Positions 1 to 22,509 of a DNA stretch of 37,086 bases are shown here, in pieces (the stretch's first letter is position 1; each line of letters starts with the position of its first letter). The stretch covers positions 1-37,086 of IMG/VR virus record IMGVR_UViG_3300025168_000250; one strand, written 5' to 3'. The notes below the pieces were generated by a model. The model worked only from the letters and a program-made list of their open reading frames with translations. It did no database searches and had not been told where the DNA came from. Source of the DNA: a virus. The translations under genes were made by a program, and so were the position numbers.

Positions 1-930
1 GGCCTTCAGTCCACTGGTAAGTCATATATGGCAACCCAGATTGCTGCAAACGCTCAGAAGGCCGGCAAGATGGTCGTTTACTTCGATTCGGAGTCTGCCA
101 TCGACCCAACATTTCTGGAACGCGCAGGGTGTGATCTAGAACGACTAATGTACGTTCAGGCATCATCCGTTGAGTTTGTTCTTGAGACTATCGAGGAACT
201 GCTCGGTGCAACAGACGAAGAGTTGGTATTAATTTGGGATTCGTTGGCGTTTACGCCATCAATCTCTGATGTTGAGGGTGATTTCAACCCCCAATCATCA
301 ATGGCTGTCAAAGCCCGCATTCTCGCTAAGGGAATGTCAAAGCTTGTTATTCCAATCGCGGATAAACAAGCAACGTTTATTGTTCTCAATCAGTTGAAGA
401 CCAATATTCCACAGGGCCCAATGGCTCGACAAATTGCAATGACTACACCTTATATCACCCCCGGTGGTAAGGCAATGCATTATGCTTATTCTCTTCGTAT
501 TTGGTTGACTGGCCGCAAAGCTAAGTCTGCCTTCATCGAAGACGAAAAGGGATTTCGTATTGGCTCCGAAGTTAAGGTGAAACTAGAGAAATCTCGTTTC
601 GGTACCGCTGGTCGTTCGTGTGCTTTCCGCATTATGTGGGGCACTGACGATGTTGGTATCCGAGATGAGGAATCTTGGTTTGATGCAATCAAAGGTTCGG
701 AACACCTTACATCTGCCGGCGCATGGTATACATTTGCCACGCCCGATGGATACTCGAAGAAGTTTCAACCTTCAAAATGGACGGAGTTGATTACTTCCGA
801 TGAGGATTTCAAGAAGAGAGTCTTGGATCTCATGGATAAGGAAATCATTCAGAAGTTCGACAAGCGGCAAGGGAGCGCAAAAGAGTTCTATGAAGATCAA
901 GAAGATATCACAGTTCCCGTAAAAGAGTAA
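1..930 (+). CDS. recA: RecA-family recombinase, 5'-truncated by the window edge
   Basis: ATP-dependent strand-exchange protein for homologous recombination and recombination-dependent replication. The reading frame is open from base 1, and its first residues read GLQSTGKS, a Walker A motif. The start codon therefore lies outside the window and the ATG at 28 is internal. Walker B-like LVLIWDSL follows at about bases 223-246. A TPYITPGGKAMHYAYS segment at about bases 445-492 matches the RecA L2/GGxAL region, and this favours bacterial-type RecA over T4 UvsX. The tail is acidic (EDQEDITVPVKE). It is followed by a hairpin terminator and a promoter at 940-991, so it probably ends a transcription unit. 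Family assignment is firm; subtype is inferred from motif style. Confidence 0.93.
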   Translation, partial: GLQSTGKSYMATQIAANAQKAGKMVVYFDSESAIDPTFLERAGCDLERLMYVQASSVEFVLETIEELLGATDEELVLIWDSLAFTPSISDVEGDFNPQSSMAVKARILAKGMSKLVIPIADKQATFIVLNQLKTNIPQGPMARQIAMTTPYITPGGKAMHYAYSLRIWLTGRKAKSAFIEDEKGFRIGSEVKVKLEKSRFGTAGRSCAFRIMWGTDDVGIRDEESWFDAIKGSEHLTSAGAWYTFATPDGYSKKFQPSKWTELITSDEDFKKRVLDLMDKEIIQKFDKRQGSAKEFYEDQEDITVPVKE

Positions 931-939
931 AGAAAATAC

Positions 940-968
940 TTGACTCTGGCCCTCCGATCGGTTATGCT
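940..968 (+). promoter_or_regulatory. sigma70-type promoter inside a terminator hairpin
   Basis: The -35 box is TTGACT (940-945), the spacer is 17 bases and the -10 box is TATGCT (963-968). Initiation is expected near base 975. The spacer holds the 5' arm of the hairpin at 949-985, so transcripts from this promoter lack that arm. It would drive the 67-aa gene at 992 and the exonuclease at 1179. Confidence 0.7.
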
Positions 969-991
969 ATTAACTGACGGAGGGCTTTTTT
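949..991 (+). terminator. intrinsic terminator whose 3' arm is a Shine-Dalgarno sequence
   Basis: GCCCTCCG (949-956) pairs perfectly with CGGAGGGC (978-985), leaving a 21-base loop, and is followed by six T residues (986-991). It would stop transcription arriving from recA. The 3' arm contains GGAGGG (979-984), which is correctly spaced as the ribosome binding site for the ATG at 992. Any read-through RNA would hide that site, while RNA begun at the internal promoter would expose it. The long loop may weaken termination. Confidence 0.65.
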
Positions 992-1195
992 ATGAGTAAG
1001 ACACATCATGAGATGTGCGGTGCATGCGACAAGGTATCACTTGAGTATACGCCAGAAGAGTTTCCACAACCGGGAGAAATAGCAGAACGTATACTGTCTA
1101 GGAATCCCGATTGGGCGAGACTACACAATATGATTTCAACTGCGATTTCAAGAAGAGATAAACTATGGAGAGAATATAATGACAAAAACCGATAA
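992..1195 (+). CDS. small unknown protein with CGAC motif
   Basis: A 67-aa protein of unknown function. It has a CGAC pair of cysteines near residues 9-12, too few alone for a zinc site unless it dimerises. The C-terminal half is charged and probably helical (residues ~30-67). The ATG follows GGAGGG at 979-984, and its start lies directly after the T-run of a terminator, so expression should depend on the promoter at 940. It overlaps the exonuclease start by 17 bases, which suggests translational coupling. No family recognised. Confidence 0.6.
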   Translation: MSKTHHEMCGACDKVSLEYTPEEFPQPGEIAERILSRNPDWARLHNMISTAISRRDKLWREYNDKNR

Positions 1196-2153
1196 TAAGC
1201 GAGTCATCGTTATTGATGCACTTAACATGTTCTTGAGGGCCTACATTGTAGATCCCTCTTTATCAACCAATGGAGATCCTATTGGTGGTATCAAGGGTTC
1301 GTTTAAGATCCTACAGAAGCTAATCAGAATGACAAAGCCTGATTCTGTGGTAGTTGTGTGGGATGGGCCTAATGGCTCCCGTAAGCGCCGCAGCATGGAT
1401 AAGAACTACAAAGCCGGCCGTAAGCCCTTGCGCTTGAATAGAGCCGTTCAGAACCTCACTGAGGACGAAATCTTAAAAAATAAGATCTGGCAACAAACTC
1501 GAACCATTGATTATGTTAATCACATGCCTATCGTTCAAGTCATGATACCGGAAGTCGAGGCCGATGACGTTATTTCGTATGTGACCCAGATGAGTCACTA
1601 TGATGGCTGGCAGAAGGTAATCATTTCTAATGATAAGGACTTCTTGCAGTTGTGTGATGGAGACACTGTATTATACCGCCCAACGGTAGATGAGGTCATG
1701 AATACCAAGCGCGTCGTCGAAACATTTGGCGTTCACCCCAACAACATGGCTCTAGCGCGCTCTATCATTGGGGACGCATCTGATAACCTCCCAGGTATCA
1801 AGGGTGCTGGTGTTACCTCGGTTAAGAAAAGACTGTCGTTCCTTGCATCAGAGAAGGACTACACAGTAGAAGATGTTATTCAGTTTTGTGAAGGCGCTGA
1901 CAGTAAGTTAAAGTTCTTCACGAATATCATCGACGGCCGTAAAGTGATCGAACATAATTACAAAATGATGCAATTATATTCTCCGATACTCTCGATTCAG
2001 TCTAAGACCTTTGTTGACAATGCAATAGAGAACTTTGATTGTAATTTCAATCAGTTAGAGATATACCGAAAAATGCGTGAAGATGGTTTTGGAGAACTTA
2101 ATTGGGAAGACCTCAAAACAAACCTAAATAGAATCAAAATTGATTGCTTTTGA
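1179..2153 (+). CDS. 5'-3' exonuclease / flap nuclease (T4 RNase H / Pol I N-domain family)
   Basis: This 324-aa metal-dependent nuclease is expected to remove RNA primers and 5' flaps from lagging-strand fragments. Acidic motifs of the FEN family appear in order: VIDALN near the N-terminus, VVWDG around residue 60, EVEADD around 127, SNDKDF around 150 and GDASDNLPGIKGAG around 197-210. The last is the metal-site plus helix-hairpin-helix signature. No polymerase domain follows, so it is a stand-alone exonuclease. GGAG at 1167-1170 supports the ATG at 1179. It lies between recA and dnaB, as expected for a replication cluster. Confidence 0.92.
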   Translation: MTKTDNKRVIVIDALNMFLRAYIVDPSLSTNGDPIGGIKGSFKILQKLIRMTKPDSVVVVWDGPNGSRKRRSMDKNYKAGRKPLRLNRAVQNLTEDEILKNKIWQQTRTIDYVNHMPIVQVMIPEVEADDVISYVTQMSHYDGWQKVIISNDKDFLQLCDGDTVLYRPTVDEVMNTKRVVETFGVHPNNMALARSIIGDASDNLPGIKGAGVTSVKKRLSFLASEKDYTVEDVIQFCEGADSKLKFFTNIIDGRKVIEHNYKMMQLYSPILSIQSKTFVDNAIENFDCNFNQLEIYRKMREDGFGELNWEDLKTNLNRIKIDCF

Positions 2154-19322: not shown

Positions 19323-19949
19323 ATGGCTCGCAAAACACTTTTAACCGAATCTGAGATTCGTAGTTTTTTAAAACTGGCCGATCTTAAACACATCGGTGAC
19401 GACAGGATTCACGAAATGTACGGTACGAAAATGCCCGGCATGCGTGATGACGAAGAAGAAATGAAAGAAGAAGAAGATCCTATGGCTGATATGGCCGATG
19501 ACGACGCTATGCCCGGTATGGCGGATGATGCCGAAATGGGTATGGATGCTGAACCCGCAGACATGGACGTTGATATGGGCGCTGATATGGCCGCACCCGC
19601 CGGCTCTGGAATGGTTTCCATCGAAGACTTCATGGGCGCTCTTGAAGCTGCTCTGGAAGATGTGACCGGACAACCAGTCGAAACTGAAGTTGACATGGAA
19701 GATGATGCCATGGACGACGACGGCATGGATGATGACGGCATGGGTGATGATATGTCTGGTATGGATGATGCCATGCCCGGCATGGACGACGATGACGACA
19801 TGGACGCACCAGCAGCCATGATGGAAGAAGAAGAAGTTGTTAACGAAGTTGCCCGACGAGTGGCAGCCCGCCTTCAGGCTAAAAACAACAAGGCCGAAAT
19901 GGTCGATCAACTTGCAGAAAGAATCTTAAGCCGATTAACATCAAAATAG
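19323..19949 (+). CDS. highly acidic Asp/Met-rich protein, scaffold- or core-like
   Basis: A 208-aa protein made of three parts. Residues 1-30 are a conserved-looking helix (LLTESEIRSFLKLADL) that I recall from marine phage structural proteins. Residues ~38-175 are low complexity, dominated by Asp, Met, Glu, Gly and Ala, with MPGM and MDDDG units. The last ~35 residues are an amphipathic basic helix (VARRVAARLQA, then DQLAERILSRL). Very negative internal regions with helical ends are common in prohead core or scaffolding proteins. AAAGGAG precedes the ATG and a terminator follows at 19979. Role inferred. Confidence 0.72.
   Translation: MARKTLLTESEIRSFLKLADLKHIGDDRIHEMYGTKMPGMRDDEEEMKEEEDPMADMADDDAMPGMADDAEMGMDAEPADMDVDMGADMAAPAGSGMVSIEDFMGALEAALEDVTGQPVETEVDMEDDAMDDDGMDDDGMGDDMSGMDDAMPGMDDDDDMDAPAAMMEEEEVVNEVARRVAARLQAKNNKAEMVDQLAERILSRLTSK
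19710..19754 (+). repeat. short 15-base tandem repeats encoding MDDDG units
   Basis: Three adjacent 15-base units begin ATGGACGACGACGGC (19710), ATGGATGATGACGGC (19725) and ATGGGTGATGATATG (19740). The first two encode the same five residues with different third-position bases, so the protein repeat has been kept while the DNA drifted. Confidence 0.7.
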
Positions 19950-19978
19950 TTGACAAAACTTTTGTGAGTCATTATAAT
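19950..19978 (+). promoter_or_regulatory. perfect-consensus sigma70 promoter abutting a terminator hairpin
   Basis: TTGACA (19950-19955), 17 bases, TATAAT (19973-19978): all 12 consensus bases at ideal spacing. Initiation near 19985 falls inside the 5' arm of the hairpin at 19979-20002. It drives the membrane protein gene at 20020 and the ClpP-like and 465-aa genes after it. Confidence 0.85.
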
Positions 19979-20010
19979 AACCACTAGCATATGCTGGTGG
20001 TTATTTTTTT
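19979..20010 (+). terminator. intrinsic terminator after the acidic virion-type gene
   Basis: AACCACTAGC (19979-19988) pairs with GCTGGTGGTT (19993-20002) through one U-G wobble and an ATAT loop. A run of seven T follows (20004-20010). It would stop transcripts from the acidic protein gene. Transcripts from the promoter just upstream begin part-way through the first arm and should not form it. GGAG for the next gene follows at 20011. Confidence 0.82.
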
Positions 20011-20019
20011 GGAGATATC

Positions 20020-20424
20020 ATGGACCCTTGGTGGCTATACGCCCTTGTATTTATATTCGGATATGTAACGTGCCAAACGTTTTATTTCCTCAATTCTGCC
20101 AGAGTGTCATTAAAACTAATGAAATCAAGCAGAGTTATCTACTTATTGATGATGGTAAAGGCAATGGAAAAATATAAGATTGCCGAAAAAGTTATGATAT
20201 CTCACTTACAGGAGTCAAATAAAGATCAGGATATAATTGATGCTTTTAAAAATAGCATTGAAAGCGAACGTAGGGGGTTCAAGGCAAGAAGCATTAACTG
20301 CCTTATTAACAATACTCCCCCAACTTTTCGTGAAGTCTTGGGATTTGATGACTGGGAGAGTGCGATAATGTATCTGACACTACATCAGGAAGAAGCATTC
20401 AAATTTTGGAGATTAAAAGAATGA
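20020..20424 (+). CDS. N-terminally membrane-anchored protein, unknown
   Basis: A 134-aa protein with one membrane helix at about residues 4-24 (WLYALVFIFGYVTCQTFYFL). The remainder is a soluble, mostly helical domain ending in a Trp-rich segment (DDWESAIMYL, then FKFWRLKE). Similar proteins occur in marine phages as far as I recall, without a known role. GGAG at 20011-20014 supports the ATG. The stop overlaps the ClpP-like start as ATGA. Confidence 0.68.
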   Translation: MDPWWLYALVFIFGYVTCQTFYFLNSARVSLKLMKSSRVIYLLMMVKAMEKYKIAEKVMISHLQESNKDQDIIDAFKNSIESERRGFKARSINCLINNTPPTFREVLGFDDWESAIMYLTLHQEEAFKFWRLKE

Positions 20425-21076: not shown

Positions 21077-22474
21077 GTGCCAAAATACACAGACGATATG
21101 TTTATCGAAGTTAGAAAACCTAAACCAACTAAAGCACCTGATAACAACTTTTATCAGATCTTTGAAGAAGTAGCCAAAATAGTACAAAGTGGCATTATTC
21201 AGGAGCAGGAACCGGGCCAATTCAAAGGTCCTGAGACCGCTGACGAAATAAGAAAGTTATTACCAACTCTTAAGATTACTGAAGATTGGGGCAAGGTTGG
21301 AAACAGAGATCGGGAAGTGATTGAATCCTTCACCGCCAGTTTGGGAGGTGAGAACACTTCGGTCGAGCAAAAAATTCAACTTATGAACCAAGTCATTGAG
21401 GGCCAGAGCCCTGATGTTGGCGATATATCCGATGTGCTTACAGTTATGATGGTTGTAGAGGTTCTTAGCTCCATTCTAGGAGAGTTTACAGAGTCTGCAG
21501 GGGGTTTTATTTTTGAAGGCTTCCTTGCCGGCTTGTTTGGCGGTAAATCAGTGCAGATCACCCAGCCATCTGACATCACTGCTGCGACAGGCGAAACTGT
21601 CTCAGCGTCCGGAAAGCCAATTACAGACGTTGTGCTTTCGGGCAAACACTATTCCCTGAAGCTGCTTGGACCTGGGACAGCCGTCATGGGTTCATTTAAG
21701 AACATGGTCGATCACTTTGTAGAAATTGATTCGATTACATATCTGGATGCTCGCCGCGCTGGCAGTAATCTTGAGTTCTCTGAGTTCGATATCACACTAC
21801 CGACATTCTTGCAAACATTCTACTACCCACTTGTTAGGTACCAAAAGAAGACCGCAGTAGTAGACACTCCACGTAAATTACAGAATGCTCTCAACAAGCT
21901 TGGTGATAAGGTGTTCCAGGTTAGGCTATCCAAGAGGTTGAACCGCGTAACAAACATCAAGCCAGAACAATTCGAAGAGTTGTTGACAATGCAAAACCTT
22001 GCAGAGTATGGACCTTTTGAGATACAGTACTCCGACGAGAAGTTTGGTGGAAAAGTCAAACAGTACTTTGGAAGCGGAAGGATCTTTAATGACGTGCAGG
22101 CCGCTGTTGAATCAAAAGATAAGGCCGCCATCCTACAGGCGTTACGTGAGACACCTGCCTACAAGAAGCCAGAACAATTCAACCTCACCAGATCGCAGAC
22201 AGAAAAGATCGATTCTTACAGAGAACTTGGTACTTTACAACTGGGTGACGAAGCCCTCAAGAAGACTTGGATGGCGTATGGAGAGAGGCTGATGCAAACC
22301 ATCGGCCCAGTTTATTCTTCGCTCAACAATTTCACCAATAACATTAACAGGTACTTTCTTTCAGCACCAACTGAAGGTGAGTCTCGAACTGGATACGGTA
22401 GACAAGCTATCAGAGATGCCACCGTACTCGACCAAGCCACTGATAAAGCAGTTGGCGAGTTAAATAAATCATAA
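21077..22474 (+). CDS. 465-aa unknown protein in the virion-type block
   Basis: The GTG start at 21077 follows AAGGAGA. Residues ~137-160 are hydrophobic and glycine-rich (GGFIFEGFLAGLFGGK). A GKPITDVVLSGKHYSLKLLG stretch near 178-197 looks like the core strands of a PD-(D/E)XK-type nuclease fold (Glu, then Asp, then xLK), but this is a weak visual match. The C-terminal half is helical and basic-acidic mixed. It sits directly after the ClpP-like protease, with which it may be co-expressed, and before the groEL promoter. It could be a virion protein; function unknown. Confidence 0.65.
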   Translation: MPKYTDDMFIEVRKPKPTKAPDNNFYQIFEEVAKIVQSGIIQEQEPGQFKGPETADEIRKLLPTLKITEDWGKVGNRDREVIESFTASLGGENTSVEQKIQLMNQVIEGQSPDVGDISDVLTVMMVVEVLSSILGEFTESAGGFIFEGFLAGLFGGKSVQITQPSDITAATGETVSASGKPITDVVLSGKHYSLKLLGPGTAVMGSFKNMVDHFVEIDSITYLDARRAGSNLEFSEFDITLPTFLQTFYYPLVRYQKKTAVVDTPRKLQNALNKLGDKVFQVRLSKRLNRVTNIKPEQFEELLTMQNLAEYGPFEIQYSDEKFGGKVKQYFGSGRIFNDVQAAVESKDKAAILQALRETPAYKKPEQFNLTRSQTEKIDSYRELGTLQLGDEALKKTWMAYGERLMQTIGPVYSSLNNFTNNINRYFLSAPTEGESRTGYGRQAIRDATVLDQATDKAVGELNKS

Positions 22475-22480
22475 AACAAA

Positions 22481-22509
22481 TTGACATAATCTTAATATTG
22501 AGATATAAT
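22481..22509 (+). promoter_or_regulatory. perfect-consensus sigma70 promoter of groEL with inverted repeat
   Basis: TTGACA (22481-22486), 17 bases, TATAAT (22504-22509). An inverted repeat, TTAATATT (22492-22499) and AATATTAA (22507-22514), spans the -10 and could be an operator. It is not followed by a T-run, so it is not a terminator. The groEL ATG is 24 bases below. Confidence 0.85.

Follow-up and report, generated by a model that had tools for sequence, protein, structure and literature searches.

The uvsX-exonuclease junction

The window, by which we mean the whole stretch of DNA analysed, is a 37,086-base viral contig of IMG/VR (IMGVR_UViG_3300025168_000250). It opens inside a uvsX/recA-like recombinase gene, whose 5' end is cut off by the window edge and whose stop codon lies at 928-930. 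Downstream of this gene, a promoter, a hairpin and a Shine-Dalgarno (SD) sequence overlap within a short module at 940-992, which is followed by an operon. The features are as follows.

1-930, plus strand: uvsX/recA-like recombinase gene (PF00154, E 6e-27; PHROG 97 UvsX-like, E 3e-45)
940-945, plus strand: -35 hexamer TTGACT, 9 nt past the uvsX stop; TTGAC is invariant in 20 aligned relatives
948-956, plus strand: hairpin 5' arm within the promoter spacer, containing the anti-SD CCTCC and showing covariation
963-968, plus strand: -10 hexamer TATGCT, enclosed by the hairpin loop, which spans 957-977
974-977, plus strand: expected transcription start, about 7 nt past the -10 by sigma-70 spacing
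978-986, plus strand: hairpin 3' arm, holding the SD GGAGG (979-983)
986-991, plus strand: T6 tract, putative terminator U-tract and SD-to-start spacer (terminator score d, 30)
992-1195, plus strand: 67-aa ORF with its ATG at 992, opening the downstream operon
1179-2153, plus strand: 5'-3' exonuclease gene (PF02739, E 1e-27), the constant downstream gene among relatives

No family match was found for the 67-aa ORF in Pfam and PHROG profile searches. The window also encodes a DnaB-type helicase, a class II ribonucleotide reductase (RNR), DNA polymerase III alpha and GroEL. Because of this gene content, including Pol III alpha, the phage is not a T4-type phage proper. Searching cultured phage records with the module region by blastn gave no match, and tblastn with UvsX, helicase and Pol III found only distant cultured relatives. 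The nearest by UvsX and helicase was Microcystis phage Mel-JY01, at 30-38% identity. From the sampling places of its relatives, we infer that the phage group is marine.

Anatomy of the module

The promoter, TTGACT-N17-TATGCT, matches 9/12 consensus letters and is weaker than in most relatives. GCCCTCCG (949-956) pairs with CGGAGGGC (978-985), and the stem reaches 9 bp (948-956/978-986) when one G-U pair is counted. Both the -10 and the expected start fall in the 21-nt loop; the ATG lies eight nt beyond the SD. The predicted fold of 945-995 has an energy of -26.8 kcal/mol. As expected of an intrinsic terminator, a stable G+C-rich stem (-24.7 kcal/mol) is followed by a U-tract, T6, and d is 30; the 21-nt loop is large for such a terminator and counts against strong termination. 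A generic terminator scan passed over this hairpin because it allowed only loops of 3-8 nt, and Rfam gave no match above its gathering score in the window. Re-reading the sequence found every element of 940-992 at the coordinates that the original prediction had assigned to it. The 5' arm does lie in the promoter spacer, the -10 and the predicted start do both sit in the loop, and the 3' arm does carry the SD of the next gene.

The module among UvsX relatives

We fetched 80 IMG/VR contigs by UvsX similarity, a single collection, which together with the window gave 81. The module was present ahead of the exonuclease operon in 60 of the 81, and 43 distinct module cores were found. The initial table had 61 rows, from which one match (L016, with TTGGAA and no T-run) was discarded as spurious. 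About 20 relatives had no recognisable module, some of them because the contig stops near the site. When promoter, hairpin and T-tract were scanned for jointly, the window gave 2 sites, compared with 0.17 per dinucleotide shuffle.

In about one third of the modules another gene stands between uvsX and the module. The module thus keeps its place ahead of the downstream operon. One such intervening gene is a 110-aa His-rich lipoprotein-like ORF (L029:4940-5272); with a lipoprotein-like gene in between, the module lies about 300 nt further on. The gene directly after the module also differs: it may be missing, or be the 67-aa ORF, a UvdE endonuclease gene (L047:2012-2944) or a deaminase gene (L075:4967-5410). 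Judged by these neighbours, UvdE, deaminase and lipoprotein-like ORF, the junction appears to be a place of gene gain and loss.

Compensatory change in the hairpin arms

The modules were grouped by single linkage into ten arm families, and 5' arms were paired with their own or with swapped 3' arms. Own arms gave -21.3 kcal/mol and swapped arms -11.9 kcal/mol, and 0/20000 permutations were as good; these modules had been selected for a hairpin. Because of that selection, the swap was redone on promoters lying no more than 60 nt from the uvsX stop, chosen irrespective of pairing. In this unselected set of 20 clusters, own arms again paired better (-17.7 compared with -12.1 kcal/mol; permutation p about 0). 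An alignment of 20 modules, built without structure from modules of the hairpin set, showed both-sided changes in 10/15 pairs. Its covariation score was 0.396; shuffling gave 0.255 +/- 0.022 (0/500), and sliding the structure along gave 0.09-0.18.

The kind of mismatch was also informative. Among mismatches flanked by Watson-Crick pairs, G-U outnumbered A-C by 27 to 4 in the distinct modules, and the unselected set had 19 G-U, 0 A-C and 4 others. Swapping the 3' segments of the unselected set gave means of 8.6 G-U and 1.5 A-C, so the G-U excess is partly due to base composition, and own arms still exceed it. Since the tolerated mismatch is G-U and not A-C, which would be unexpected for a DNA operator or for a minus-strand RNA, the hairpin is indicated to be one of plus-strand RNA.

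We considered whether the inverted repeat could instead be an operator, bound as DNA by a protein that represses or activates the promoter, as dyad symmetry centred near the -10 would allow. Loop length ranges from 3 to 34 nt among the modules, which argues against an operator of fixed spacing; arm variation is compensated, the mismatches are G-U and not A-C, and the T-run stands on one side only. Loop length, covariation and the bias towards G-U led us to reject the operator reading, which we regard as very improbable. These results indicate that the predicted hairpin is a real element, a conserved plus-strand RNA structure with a 5' arm that precedes the expected start.

Proposed mechanism and its two outputs

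The module is probably a self-insulating promoter, that is, an insulator that senses where the transcript began. RNA arriving from uvsX would hold both arms, so that the hairpin folds and the transcript is released at the U-tract; in uvsX-derived RNA that escapes release, the SD of the next gene would stay paired. RNA from the embedded sigma-70-type promoter would begin 3' of the 5' arm, form no hairpin, be elongated and expose the SD. Since the hairpin would thus read the origin of the transcript, the exonuclease-helicase-RNR operon would be expressed only from its own promoter. With any normal start site, RNA that begins at the local promoter lacks the 5' arm; promoter activity, the start site itself, termination, the translational block and the extent of the operon are what we infer from the sequence. 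A polymerase that terminates at the T-tract would still cross the promoter, and promoter occlusion would not be prevented.

We investigated both outputs across the 43 distinct modules. Termination was scored by the d'Aubenton-Carafa formula in an implementation of our own, which is approximate and trims outer pairs ending in T. The score d was above 0 in 22/43 modules, with the window high at 30; about half of the relatives have too poor a T-tract to make a good intrinsic terminator, and predicted termination is thus not uniformly strong. An SD in or overlapping the 3' arm was commoner than a good terminator score, being found in about 35/43. In the window, the predicted SD pairing was 1.00 in read-through RNA and 0.13 in locally started RNA, modelled from about 7 nt past the -10. 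Over the modules the means were 0.97 and 0.45, and the latter, not being near zero, counts against full exposure of the SD as modelled.

The two outputs are separable among relatives. In nine modules (L008, L012-L014, L041, L043, L046, L050 and L057) the SD is separate from the stem, which is still kept; most of these have a good T-run, a weaker one being found in L012, L014, L046 and L050. In L052, L062 and L073 the SD is inside the arm and the T-run is short, with TTT before the start codon. Because of this separability, the constant core is the promoter inside the hairpin, with the 5' arm upstream of the start, and lineages appear each to use termination, SD hiding or both. Since the T-tract doubles as SD-to-start spacer, the length of the U-tract and the spacing of the SD may have to be balanced against each other. 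The original prediction that recA-derived RNA hides the ribosome site agrees with the pairing of 1.0 predicted for the window; termination and hiding, which it expected together at this site, are separable among relatives.

The counts of about 35/43 and 22/43, and the several modules with only TTT ahead of the start codon, would also suit a hairpin that mainly hides the ribosome site in read-through RNA, giving timing or insulation of the T4 gene e type, with termination weak or incidental. Yet stems with a separate SD are kept and have a T-run in L008, L013, L041, L043 and L057 (weaker in L012, L014 and L046), the window combines T6 with d = 30, and Mel-JY01 carries at the same junction a plain terminator-like hairpin without a recognised promoter. 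We therefore consider this reading unlikely, and prefer the self-insulating promoter with two outputs.

A second promoter-terminator overlap in the window

The genome was also searched for the same arrangement, as had been proposed with the original prediction. A second overlap of promoter and terminator was found.

19950-20005, plus strand: class II promoter-terminator, TTGACA-N17-TATAAT, conserved in 42 viral contigs
20020-20424, plus strand: 134-aa ORF behind the class II module, adjoining the head maturation protease gene

The class II promoter is a perfect consensus match. Its terminator hairpin starts at 19976, within the -10, so that transcription is expected to begin inside the 5' arm. 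The stem, AATAACCACT/AGTGGTTATT, is kept in the 42 contigs with variable loops. Unlike in the module at 940-992 (class I), the SD is separate and lies downstream. Most of the larger contigs scanned had one class I and one class II site, and never more per contig; at the scan threshold, G003, G004 and G014 had class I only and G006 class II only.

Consensus-like promoters also begin 1-10 nt past an upstream stop at 930-940, 2153-2155, 19949-19950 and 22474-22481, with a hairpin at some of them only. The consensus promoter before groEL (22481-22509) overlaps an A+T-rich inverted repeat, TTAATATT/AATATTAA.

Comparison with known systems

In T4, the genes e, soc, 49 and I-TevI have hairpins that sequester the SD in longer upstream transcripts (PMC3014915). 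Late promoters just upstream of gene e give RNA that lacks the 5' strand and is translated, with an effect of about 100-fold, and I-TevI follows the same logic (PMC3014915). The translation half of the proposed logic is therefore experimentally established in T4 gene e. As in gene e, the window SD is sequestered in upstream-started RNA (predicted pairing 1.00), and the -10 at 963-968 lies beyond the arm at 948-956, so that the start is predicted past the 5' strand. Unlike gene e, with its late promoter and temporal switch, the window has a promoter of the sigma-70 early type (TTGACT-N17-TATGCT) and not of the T4 late type, TATAAATA. The T4 hairpins serve as a late-promoter timing switch, and terminators are unmentioned in that review (PMC3014915), whereas in the window a U-tract lies behind the stem at an operon boundary. 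At T4 modB (L230, NC_000866, minus strand, about 13185-13130), a hairpin, GATATGATAGC/GCTATCATG, is predicted with a promoter-like -10, TATGAT, in its 5' arm and with both the SD and the AUG of modB in its 3' arm; here the promoter is of early type and the logic is the same.

PeSLs (promoter-early stem-loops) of T4-type phages are reportedly dense in regions of gene shuffling, as Arbiol 2010 and Comeau 2014 are said to have found. They are cited in PMC4503421 as composites of promoter and terminator between genes. At the sequence level, the window likewise has a sigma-70-type promoter overlapping a terminator stem-loop. In RB49, two minus-strand sites, 3201 (L122) and 112374 (L231), have the 5' arm in the spacer, a -10 within the loop or at its edge, and a tail rich in T; they are probably PeSLs. 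Their SD is outside the hairpin, whereas the window has it in the 3' arm. The window phage also differs in having Pol III alpha and not a T4-type polymerase.

Because of this composite build, and of the two RB49 sites with the same geometry, the module could be taken for a mobile, PeSL-like recombination cassette that serves mainly to shuffle genes. The genes flanking it differ among relatives (UvdE, deaminase, lipoprotein-like gene or none), which may suit such a role. However, PeSLs are described as many similar copies in variable regions of one genome, whereas class I modules occur about once per genome at a fixed junction, with no more than one class II site in any contig scanned, and their arm sequences have strongly diverged between relatives. 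We judge a cassette role improbable, and retain the self-insulating promoter.

IS10/IS50 are protected from read-through in a similar way: read-through RNA hides the transposase SD, and RNA from the internal promoter does not. These are transposon ends and are not known to have a fused terminator, whereas the window module has a putative one. phiX174 is reported to have an overlapping promoter-terminator that appears to decouple neighbouring genes; an SD in the stem is not described there (PMC9135205).

The same layout outside the clade

We searched for the pattern TTGAC, CCTCC, TATAAT, GGAGG and T5, in that order. It matched four bacterial contigs (Lentisphaerae, Clostridia, Melainabacteria and Ruminococcus; L232-L235), for which the chance expectation is about 0.02 matches in the 257-Gb bacterial set under equal base use, a figure that real base bias would raise. 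In two registers, the pattern matched 30 viral contigs. Several belong to unrelated phages: on the fetched stretches of L236, L237 and L242-L250, neither UvsX nor the exonuclease gave a match. Stems in the cases outside the clade were nearly all longer than the pattern demands, and most had a start codon directly after the T-tract. Two controls, in which the 5' arm of the pattern was made non-complementary, gave zero matches in viral contigs. One case, L246, may be a coincidence within a coding region. The Lentisphaerae case (WC36) sits behind a sulfatase-like gene. Judged by these matches, about ten unrelated lineages of phages and bacteria appear to have the full architecture.

Phage genomes are compact, each part is common and the window has many chance promoter-like sites, so an ordinary terminator, promoter and ribosome site might overlap by accident. 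Against such an accident, the module is conserved, covaries and is far above shuffles, and the control patterns matched nothing. We hold it to be extremely improbable.

Implications

The logic of the module is not wholly new, as its pieces are known from T4 gene e, PeSLs and phiX174. Against the searchable literature, what is new is the union of three functions in one stem, its fixed junction despite divergence and its recurrence in unrelated genomes. We tentatively suggest that origin-sensing terminator/promoter/SD hairpins could form an unnamed, recurrent class of compact operon insulator, kept despite large sequence divergence at a replication-operon boundary in uncultured marine phages and independently evolved in other phages and in bacterial chromosomes.

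By this arrangement, a promoter would gain built-in protection from its neighbour at almost no extra DNA, and one stem would set both transcription and translation by the origin of the RNA. Its conservation with compensatory change makes the module testable by simple reporters. The module may also serve as a natural part for insulated promoters in laboratory constructs, and could help to recognise where operons begin and end in genomes beyond the reach of culture.
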